Shown: positions 3,789-6,776 of the stretch, one piece after another | Position numbering within the stretch: the first letter of the stretch is position 1 | Layout of the letters: each line of letters opens with the position of its first letter | Assembly: GCA_902551755.1 (NCBI GenBank) | Contig: CACDEB010000002.1 | Coordinates: forward strand, 186,001-250,000 | Origin: an uncultured Pelagibacteraceae bacterium | Lineage (GTDB): Bacteria > Pseudomonadota > Alphaproteobacteria > Pelagibacterales > Pelagibacteraceae | Length of the DNA: 64,000 nt | Direction: 5' to 3' | Translations under genes and position numbers: made by a program | Notes under the pieces: generated by a model | What the model was told of the DNA's origin: nothing | Seen by the model: the letters and a program-made list of their open reading frames with translations, nothing else | Databases searched by the model: none

Positions 3789-4520
3789 TTGATTTGCTAT
3801 GCAATTTTTTATAAGATGATAATTAATATGATTTTTGAACAACTATTCGATACTAAGTCTTCAACCTATACGTACATACTGTCAAGCGGTGAAGGTCGTG
3901 AAGCTTTGATAATCGATCCGGTAATAGAGCACACTGAAGAATATATAAAACTTTTAGAAAAACTAAAATTAAAGTTAGTAAAAGTGATTGATACTCATAT
4001 TCATGCTGACCATATTACTGGACTTAATGAGTTAAGTAAAAGAACTAGTTGCACAAAAATTATGGGTGAAAATTCTAAATCTGAAGTAGTTGACTTAAGA
4101 GTGAAAGAAAATGAAAAAATTAAACTAGATGGTATTGAATTAAAAGTTTTGTACACCCCTGGACACACAGATTGCTCATATAGTTTTTTAATGAAAGACA
4201 GAGTTTTCACTGGGGACACTTTGTTAATTAATGGGACTGGAAGAACTGATTTTCAAAATGGAAATGCAAAACAACAATACGACTCTTTATTTAATAAATT
4301 GCTTAAACTTCCAGAAAGCACAATAGTTTTTCCAGCACATGATTATAATGGGAAAAAAAACTCTACAATTGGAAATGAAATAAAAAATAATCCAAGATTA
4401 CAAGTAAATTCAATAGATCAATATGTGGAGATCATGAATAATTTGAAATTAGCTAATCCAAAAATGATGGATGTGGCTGTGCCTGCAAACGTAAAAGGCC
4501 TTACTTTAAATCAAATTTAA
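3789..4520 (+). CDS. MBL-fold hydrolase, ETHE1/persulfide dioxygenase-like
   Basis: THIHADHITG, TPGHTDCS, FTGDTLLINGTGRTDFQ, FPAHDY motifs; true start may be the downstream Met (MIFEQLF). Confidence 0.85.
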   Translation: MICYAIFYKMIINMIFEQLFDTKSSTYTYILSSGEGREALIIDPVIEHTEEYIKLLEKLKLKLVKVIDTHIHADHITGLNELSKRTSCTKIMGENSKSEVVDLRVKENEKIKLDGIELKVLYTPGHTDCSYSFLMKDRVFTGDTLLINGTGRTDFQNGNAKQQYDSLFNKLLKLPESTIVFPAHDYNGKKNSTIGNEIKNNPRLQVNSIDQYVEIMNNLKLANPKMMDVAVPANVKGLTLNQI

Positions 4521-4570
4521 AGCGACAATATTTGGGTTGATTATTGAGTTATTAGCTCTATATATCAATT

Positions 4571-4687
4571 ATGGCTTGCGACAATTCAAAATGTATTTGC
4601 ACAAACTGCACTAACGACACGTGTGCTTGCGATGGGGATATGCAATGTAATTGCAAACCTGAAAGTGTTTGTTGTTGTTGCAATTAG
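4571..4687 (+). CDS. 38-aa cysteine-rich metallothionein-like protein MACDNSKCICTNCTNDTCACDGDMQCNCKPESVCCCCN
   Basis: Translated by hand: ATG at 4571, TAG at 4685-4687, 12 Cys of 38 residues in CxC/CxxC/CCCC patterns; below the ORF-track length cut. Confidence 0.75.
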   Translation: MACDNSKCICTNCTNDTCACDGDMQCNCKPESVCCCCN

Positions 4688-4712: not shown

Positions 4713-5294
4713 ATGAATGAATTTTTAGAGTCTATAATTAAGAGAGATCCGGCTGCCAAATCAAAGTTAAGTATTATCTTAACTTATCCTGGTGCTAAGG
4801 CTGTTTTTTTTCACAAAATTGCAAATTTTTTTGCAATTGCAAAATTTCATTTAGTTGCAAGAATAATTTCTCAGTTTTCAAGATTTTTAACTGGAATAGA
4901 AATTCATCCAAAAGCAAACATTGGTAAAAATTTATTTATAGATCACGGGATGGGAGTTGTGATTGGTGAAACTTCAGAAATTGGAGATAATGTAACGATC
5001 TATCACATGGCAACACTAGGTGGTATCTCACCAAGCGTAAATTCTAATGAACAAAGAAATATTAAAAGACATCCTACACTTAAAGATAATGTTGTAGTAG
5101 GATCTGGTGCGCAAATACTTGGGCCAGTAACCGTTGGCAAAAATGCAAAAATTGGTGCTAACGCAGTTGTAACAAAAGATGTTCCAGAAAATGCAGTGAT
5201 GGTTGGAATACCGGCAAAAAATGTTGGTGAAACTTCAGGTTCAGATGAAAACTTTAAACCTTATGGTATAACTCCTGAAAGTGATAAAAATTAA
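4713..5294 (+). CDS. cysE: serine O-acetyltransferase
   Basis: Left-handed beta-helix hexapeptide repeats, [22 protein letters not shown]. Confidence 0.92.
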
Positions 5295-6297
5295 TATGAA
5301 AAATGCTCAAAATAATTTTATTGAAGGGATTGGTAATACACCATTAGTTAAATTAAGAGCTGCATCGGAAATTACTGGATGTAACATTTATGGTAAAGCA
5401 GAATACTTAAATCCAGGTGGATCTGTAAAAGATAGAGCAGCACTAGCATTAATTAAAGATGCTCAAGAAAAAAAATTAATTTCAAAAGGTGGAACGATTG
5501 TTGAAGGTACAGCTGGGAATACTGGTATTGGTCTTTGTTTAATAGGAAATTCTATTGGGTATAAAACAATTATTGTGATGAATGATAATCAAACTCAAGA
5601 AAAAAAAGACATGTTAAAGAATATGGGAGCTGATTTAAGGTTGGTCCCACCTAAACCATACAAAGATGACGGAAATTATGTAAAGGTTGCTGGTAGACTT
5701 GCAGACGAATTAAAGAGCAGCAACAATCATGGAGTAGTTTGGGCTAATCAATTTGATAACACTGCTAATTCTAAAGGACATTACGAGACTACTGGACCAG
5801 AAATATGGATGCAAACTGATGGAAAAGTTGATGGTTTTGTTTGCTCATCAGGCACAGGGGGAACTATTGCTGGTGTAAGTAGTTTTTTGAAAGAAAAAAA
5901 TAAAAATATCAAAATTTATTTGTCTGATCCTGCTGGATCATCCCTTTATAACTACATTGAAAACGGAGAATTAAAAGGTGAAGGTAACTCTATAACTGAG
6001 GGTATAGGATCAAGTAGAGTTACAGCTAATTTTGCTGAAGCAAAAATTGATGGTGCTTTCTCAATTGAGGATAAAGAGTCATTACCAGTGTTATATGACC
6101 TAATTCAAAACGAAGGTTTAAGTTTAGGAACGAGTTGTGGTGTAAATATTGCTGGAGCTATAAGACTTGGTAAGAAATTAGGACCTGGTAAGACAATTGT
6201 AACTATTCTTTGTGATAGATCAGATAAATACAACTCTAAGCTGTTTAATAAGAAGTTTTTGCAGGAAAAAGGTCTTCCGATTCCCGCTTGGATTTAA
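5281..6297 (+). CDS. cysK: cysteine synthase A (PLP-dependent)
   Basis: [31 protein letters not shown] motifs; overlaps cysE end. Confidence 0.93.
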
Positions 6298-6374
6298 TTT
6301 TTTTTCGCGCACTCTTTAATAAATCTTTTACATAATAAAAATATTGTAGTTAAATAATTTTCATAACTAAGACT

Positions 6375-6776
6375 ATGAACGAACTACTTAAAAAAAATTT
6401 CTTCTCACTTTTATTAATTGTGATATTTAGTTTGTTTATTTTTTCATTAGCATTAGCTGATTTATCAAAAAACAATAAAGAAAAAGCGTGGGACTGTGTA
6501 GGAATTTATATGGCTAACTACTTTTTACCTTCTGGTGAAAAATTTGAGTATGGAATGAAAGAAAAATCGATTGCATCAGTAAAAGTTTGGAAAAAATATG
6601 CTCTCGAAGTAGGAATTAAAGAGGCTGATTGGGATAAAGGTGTAAATAAAGCTGTCGATAAACACTATGGATCAAAATATAGTGAAAAAGCGACAAATCA
6701 GTGTCATAGTTTTCTAGAAGCTACTATCCCTAATGGCAAAGATAGAGTAAAGAAAGTTGCTCAAACTCTATATTAG
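6375..6776 (+). CDS. small secreted hypothetical protein
   Basis: ORF with N-terminal signal peptide, two cysteines in the mature part. Confidence 0.6.
   Translation: MNELLKKNFFSLLLIVIFSLFIFSLALADLSKNNKEKAWDCVGIYMANYFLPSGEKFEYGMKEKSIASVKVWKKYALEVGIKEADWDKGVNKAVDKHYGSKYSEKATNQCHSFLEATIPNGKDRVKKVAQTLY

Follow-up and report, generated by a model that had tools for sequence, protein, structure and literature searches.

The SAR11 bacteria are among the most abundant groups of the ocean and possess stripped-down genomes. In one such genome, from an uncultured member of the Pelagibacteraceae, a short unannotated open reading frame (ORF) lies in front of genes for cysteine synthesis, which raises the question of whether it encodes a working protein and, if so, of what kind. 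The ORF was analysed in a stretch of 64,000 nucleotides, here called the window. An earlier note on this DNA had described it as an ORF of 38 codons containing 12 Cys and devoid of His and aromatic residues, located between an ETHE1-like gene and cysE-cysK. The translation, MACDNSKCICTNCTNDTCACDGDMQCNCKPESVCCCCN*, agrees exactly with this description, and so do the flanking genes (Table 1). The 12 Cys amount to 31.6% of the residues, and His, Phe, Trp and Tyr are absent. Since Cys represents 0.9% of the residues in the window ORFs of at least 150 amino acids, finding 12 in 38 by chance has a probability of ~6e-16; the runner-up among the short ORFs of the window contains 13% Cys. The gene is single-copy in its own genome. 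The Cys content falls within the range of ~20–35% by which metallothioneins are broadly recognized, with conserved CxC, CxxC and CC arrays. Aromatic residues, which in metallothioneins are few or lacking, are rare across the whole family of related proteins described below.

Table 1. Positions of the features discussed; positions refer to the window, except those of the phage examples, which refer to their own loci.
Feature	Position	Strand	Basis or remark
ETHE1-like MBL-fold persulfide dioxygenase gene, upstream neighbour	3828..4520	+	PDB matches
GCGACAA element immediately 5' of the promoter	4522..4528	+	~-49..-43; conserved even in relatives that lack the MBL gene
-35-like element TTGATT	4537..4542	+	at -34 from ATG; conserved in 32 divergent relatives
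-10-like element TATATA	4559..4564	+	at -12..-7; position and conservation
Gene for 38-aa, 12-Cys metallothionein-like microprotein, stop codon included	4571..4687	+	translation, family conservation, selection
Weak hairpin AATTAG-TAAG-CTAATT of the window copy, spanning the stop codon	4682..4697	+	no stronger than shuffles
cysE, serine O-acetyltransferase, downstream neighbour	4713..5294	+	
cysK, cysteine synthase, next downstream	5296..6297	+	
Phage example L213 (IMG/VR L210-L252)	4206-4325		
Phage example L219 (IMG/VR L210-L252)	6292-6396	-	
Phage example L223 (IMG/VR L210-L252)	4354-4491	-	

When 399 genomes of the same genus were searched with the single sequence, 51 matches with E <1e-3 and without an internal stop codon were obtained, the own copy included. 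A profile constructed from 29 members additionally picked up a divergent clade of 36-residue proteins and detected the gene in four of the 14 sampled genera of the Pelagibacteraceae, a count that does not rely on the weaker of two hits in genus g3. No relative was found outside the family in samples of 378 genomes at the class level and 399 at the phylum level; a match with E = 0.006 in another family (L204) was discarded, as no family-like ORF is present there. The pooled loci that were fetched comprise 105 distinct DNA sequences from Pelagibacteraceae, encoding 91 distinct proteins. These vary in length from 36 to 44 residues, with every length change in frame, and share eleven near-invariant Cys in the arrangement M-x-C-x4-C-x-C-x2-C-x4-C-x-C-x5-C-x-C-x6-CCC. 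The positions M1, C3, N5, C8, C10, C13, C18, C20, C26, C28 and the CCC close to the terminus show little or no variation, whilst N12 and the Pro of a KP sequence are strongly conserved. The only position at which His occurs frequently is position 7, in one clade of 36-residue proteins. One relative (L197, around position 4001), with 44 residues and 15 Cys, represents an expanded form that has gained an extra CxCxxCxC block. Single Cys have been lost in a few copies; thus, one site can be dispensable, or some of the copies may be decaying.

The ratio of non-synonymous to synonymous substitutions (dN/dS), which the earlier note had proposed to determine, is ~0.2 overall in pairwise comparisons. 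It drops to 0.002–0.07 in the Cys columns, where TGT and TGC are freely exchanged, and amounts to 0.28–0.38 in the non-Cys columns. In a set of 41 disjoint pairs, evaluated against a null model based on the observed substitution spectrum, 159 amino-acid changes were counted versus 215 expected, a number as low as this being reached in none of 2000 simulations. The same holds for the non-Cys codons alone (154 changes vs. 183 expected; 0/2000), and the Cys codons considered separately likewise showed fewer changes than any of the 2000 simulations. Thus, selection acts on the sequence of the protein and not merely on its Cys codons. Lack of conservation of the reading frame and the Cys positions in relatives had been named beforehand as a possible refutation, but both proved to be conserved, and the purifying selection extends to non-Cys codons. 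Judged from these comparisons, the ORF is a real, strongly conserved gene under purifying selection.

The distribution of the gene was assessed in 80 named single-cell genomes or metagenome-assembled genomes, which were fetched via the gene for the ETHE1-like protein of the metallo-β-lactamase (MBL) fold. The next gene is cysE in 73 of them, and 50 of these 73 loci carry the ORF in a gap of 196–223 nt, whereas the gap in the other 23 measures 24–52 nt and contains no remnant. On a tree of the MBL proteins, ~11 changes between presence and absence are needed, but few branches are well supported and the number of gains and losses is, therefore, uncertain. In several of the loci devoid of the ORF (L098, L122, L128-L150), a TATATA block is found directly before cysE, within the last 60 nt. 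This position suggests that the ORF separates cysE from an old promoter of that gene, and also that the cysE transcript is leaderless in loci without the ORF; leaderless mRNAs may be common in SAR11. In genomes of genus g4, the microprotein gene heads a row of genes that includes cysE and msrB, and in three of them (G630, G653, and G596), it is located directly before msrB with all its Cys intact. No true cysE was found in these three genomes, the only cysE-like matches being ~31% identical hexapeptide transferases. As the genomes are only 70–80% complete, cysE could lie in the missing part, although it is absent from its usual place in relatives. A divergent gene for an 810-residue dehydrogenase-like protein adjoins in three g4 msrB loci (L190, L191, and L192, around position 4001). 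An adjoining ETHE1-like gene was absent from the g4 contexts examined. Thus, the connection with thiol supply, which the earlier note had deduced from the neighbouring ETHE1-like and cysE-cysK genes, is borne out in the genus and characterizes most SAR11 loci but not the entire family, which includes copies before msrB with no cysE found and copies in phages.

Alignment of 32 upstream regions that are <70% alike revealed three blocks at a fixed distance from the ATG, i.e., GCG.CAAA from -49 to -43, TTG from -34 to -32 and TATAT from -12 to -8. The information content at -34 to -32 reaches 1.89 bits, compared with a maximum of 0.97 in a jittered control, and the blocks are also present in genus g4. 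Scanning for a sigma-70 consensus was uninformative in this AT-rich DNA, and the promoter was revealed only by position-specific conservation relative to the ATG. A start of the sigma-70 type ~7 nt past the -10 block would coincide with the ATG. Hence, transcription presumably starts at or near the ATG at position 4571, which would give an mRNA with little or no leader. The GCGACAA element, which is not common elsewhere in the genome, is possibly an operator, an upstream promoter element or a site for a regulator. A second GCGACAA is found just inside the ORF at positions 4578–4584.

At the 3' end of the gene, many relatives have a hairpin that differs from the weak one in the window. It starts at the CCC codons, continues over two more codons and the stop codon, and extends a few bases further. 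In 24 divergent sequences, 76.5% of the cells of this hairpin pair, and its covariation score is 0.266 vs. 0.180 in shuffled alignments (0/500) and at most 0.186 in slid versions. Position 2 of codon 39 pairs with position 3 of codon 44 as G-C, C-G or A-U, depending on the sequence. In several clades, the hairpin is followed by a run of T residues, as in intrinsic terminators, and it may constitute the end of the microprotein gene's own transcript. RNAalifold did not produce a consensus hairpin, and Rfam covariance models detected nothing relevant at the locus, only a chance-level match to an animal miRNA (E 0.51). The covariation over the CCC codons implies some selection at the RNA level.

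Relatives of the SAR11 proteins appear to be encoded by marine phages. In a DNA pattern search with the back-translated N-terminal core (ATG, seven Cys, and two Asn), 40 contigs in IMG/VR matched, with core proteins of 21–62 residues, e.g., MACDNVDCNCENCTCDPCVCTPENPCGCNTDHSNDWKGVV. A second pattern, which specified eight Cys but no Asn, matched 24 contigs, 22 of which encode genuine proteins, and all 22 have N5 and C15, neither of which the pattern required. A decoy with reversed Cys spacing matched three contigs, none with a real protein. The 24 distinct phage proteins have in common the core M-x-C-x-N-x2-C-x-C-x2-C-x-C-x2-C-x-C, which in most continues with x5-C-x-C; thereby, most retain C26-x-C28 at the SAR11 spacing and have a nine-Cys core. 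The full SAR11 form with its CCC tail was not found in the viral contigs. In hhalign, the SAR11 and phage profiles align with 48% identity over 31 ungapped columns at a probability of 97%, but shared Cys content inflates such scores. Thus, on the basis of the alignment, common descent of the SAR11 and phage proteins is likely, with convergence as a possibility. The contigs are truly viral, as their neighbouring genes include those for major head proteins, an endonuclease and a thioredoxin/glutaredoxin-like protein; in one group of phages, HesB/IscA-like proteins, named from the sequence by eye, are encoded next to the core protein. Hence, the genes next to the phage copies are of the head, glutaredoxin-like or HesB-like kind, with no cys genes among them, and no ETHE1-like gene was present in the phage contexts examined. 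No PHROG or Pfam family covers the phage proteins. A tblastn search against an annotated phage collection did not yield matches, but low-complexity queries were masked, so absence does not follow.

With respect to the genes surrounding the microprotein gene in the window, the best PDB matches of the upstream MBL protein include persulfide dioxygenases, e.g., human ETHE1 (4CHL, 5e-50), and a peroxiredoxin gene is located nearby on the opposite strand. No gene for a metal transporter or metal regulator directly adjoins, a point that speaks against a metallothionein. A Met/His-rich protein with a cupredoxin domain, encoded at 1182–2374 on the minus strand next to an alternative oxidase gene and ~2–3 kb away from the ORF, possibly provides a link to copper. 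Downstream of cysK, a 133-residue protein without a Pfam match at E 0.01 is encoded at 6375–6776, and a related gene occupies the same place in L197 (5799–6173). Together, the neighbours in SAR11, with functions in persulfide oxidation, cysteine synthesis and peroxide reduction, and those in phages, the glutaredoxin-like and HesB-like genes, point to metal and thiol handling, without fixing a metal.

None of 29 family members matched any Pfam or NCBIfam model at E ≤ 1, no PHROG family matched the microprotein, and a search of the PDB produced only noise (mucin, VLDL-receptor repeat) and no bacterial metallothionein. AlphaFold2 predicted no confident fold (pLDDT 57), which is to be expected of an apo-metallothionein, yet uninformative. 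The bacterial metallothioneins SmtA/BmtA of cyanobacteria and PmtA and PflQ2 MT of Pseudomonas (Pfam Metallothio_Pro) are proteins of ~55–80 residues with a zinc-finger-like fold. Proteins of this type use both Cys and His as ligands; PflQ2 MT, for instance, has the composition Zn3Cys9His. The SAR11 protein resembles them in being small and Cys-rich, with CxC and CxxC sequences and a plausible Zn/Cd thiolate cluster, but differs in being all-Cys, in its length of 36–44 residues and in its CCC(C) end. Membership of the SmtA/BmtA family was rejected, since the curated profile did not match and the His ligands are missing, in line with the distinctness from classical SmtA that the earlier note had considered possible. 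MymT of Mycobacterium tuberculosis, which has a role with copper, is another very small, Cys-rich protein binding Cu(I); it is longer than the SAR11 protein and lacks a terminal CCC. In animal metallothioneins, the α domain forms an M4Cys11 and the β domain an M3Cys9 cluster. Their 11 and 9 Cys equal the numbers in the SAR11 proteins and the phage core, respectively, whereas the order of the Cys is different, and the phage profile gave a weak match (E = 5.4) to a fish metallothionein (1M0J). This resemblance is likely convergent.

Could the ORF serve regulation rather than encode a metal-binding protein? In most SAR11 loci, it is a short ORF 5' of cysteine genes, and it might specify a cysteine-responsive leader peptide: when Cys-tRNA is scarce, ribosomes would stall on the Cys codons, and a hairpin would open and allow transcription or translation to proceed into cysE. 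Such attenuation of cysE-cysK would fit with the leaderless-type promoter, the location between this promoter and cysE in most carriers, the terminal CCC(C), and the covarying hairpin over the CCC codons and the stop codon in relatives, with T-runs behind it in several clades. There is, moreover, a precedent in mycobacteria, where short leaderless ORFs that end in a Cys run and precede cysteine genes were proposed to be cysteine-responsive attenuators (PMC4633059), a function that was later reported for mycobacterial polycysteine ORFs, as cited in PMC13236596. The SAR11 ORF shares with these attenuators (Shell 2015; Canestrari 2020) its leaderless-type start, its short length, its terminal Cys run and its place before cysteine biosynthesis genes. 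However, its Cys are positioned at fixed spacing over the whole chain, its other residues are under selection, and it is carried by phages and by some relatives without accompanying cys genes. In a leader peptide, the regulatory Cys codons would be clustered at the RNA structure and the other residues would be free to vary, but here Cys are found chain-wide and non-Cys codons are selected, with N5 being nearly invariant. Moreover, eight conserved Cys codons precede the hairpin, so a starved ribosome would stall too early. The missing RNAalifold consensus and a window copy that folds no better than shuffles also argue against a leader peptide, as does the report that cysE and cysK of Ca. P. ubique, in a strain that may or may not carry the ORF, are unresponsive to sulfur limitation (PMC5069961). 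The g4 genomes with the gene before msrB and no cysE found, and the phage relatives, favor a working protein over a leader peptide, which is the strongest rival but which we consider an unlikely explanation. In some clades, a protein role may possibly be combined with a cis-acting role of the RNA.

A thiol protein need not be a metallothionein. It could be a carrier of an iron-sulfur cluster or of a single zinc ion, a copper chaperone, a partner of the ETHE1-like enzyme that accepts sulfane sulfur, or a redox or cysteine reservoir. The neighbouring genes would suit such functions, since ETHE1-like protein, CysE, CysK and peroxiredoxin act on persulfides, cysteine and peroxide, msrB is the neighbour in three genomes, and phage copies are found near genes for glutaredoxin-like and HesB/IscA-like proteins. 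However, a multi-metal cluster accounts better than a single site for eleven Cys strictly conserved in CxC, CxxC and CCC spacing and for the extra CxCxxCxC in the expanded form, and the examined g4 and phage contexts lack the ETHE1-like gene, which leaves these alternatives, taken together, rather improbable. As to an ORF that arose by chance or is decaying and has no function, only its short length and the absence of a family match would speak for it. Such an origin is refuted by the conservation across genera, the dN/dS values, the restriction to in-frame indels and the clean pattern of presence and absence, and its probability is negligible.

We therefore return to the metallothionein-like protein. 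Eleven strictly spaced thiolates in 38 residues, the lack of a hydrophobic core and the expansion by a CxC block are hallmarks of a metal-thiolate cluster, and the microprotein most probably envelops metal ions in the manner of a metallothionein. The gene is best filed as representing a new, distinct metallothionein-like family, separate from SmtA/BmtA. With good though not full confidence, we consider it to encode a functional minimal metallothionein-like protein of a family that is known so far from SAR11 and of which marine phages possess a shorter core. Its short chain would fold around the metal, and the eleven thiolates of the SAR11 proteins, or nine in the phage core, would act as bridges between several d10 ions (Zn2+, Cu+ or Cd2+) within a single cluster. 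By analogy with the M4 and M3 domains of animals, each chain might accommodate three or four divalent ions, or more in the case of copper. Its cellular role would be the buffering of zinc or copper and the scavenging of oxidants. The gene stands in most SAR11 carriers first behind a leaderless-type promoter, with cysE-cysK after it; thus, a protein consisting of Cys for one third may be co-expressed with the supply of cysteine. Like metal binding itself and this co-expression, the identity of the metal, the stoichiometry and the physiological role are what we infer. A more comprehensive proposal, which we advance tentatively as having somewhat less than an even chance, is that minimal all-Cys metallothioneins are shared by SAR11 and marine phages, in the latter as an auxiliary gene, that in the bacteria they are coupled to cysteine synthesis via a leaderless transcript, and that the gene may have a dual role in some clades, in which its Cys codons are at the same time part of a hairpin in the RNA ahead of cysE.

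In a limited literature search, no paper treating a metallothionein in SAR11 was found. If the ORF were a leader peptide instead, it would represent cysteine attenuation far outside the mycobacteria. If it is a metallothionein, SAR11 would possess its own metal buffer of 38 residues, missing from the family libraries that were searched, of which phages carry versions of the core. Such a protein would offer a handle on how zinc and copper are dealt with in oligotrophic cells and during their infection by phages, and it would bear on the lower size limit of a working metallothionein.
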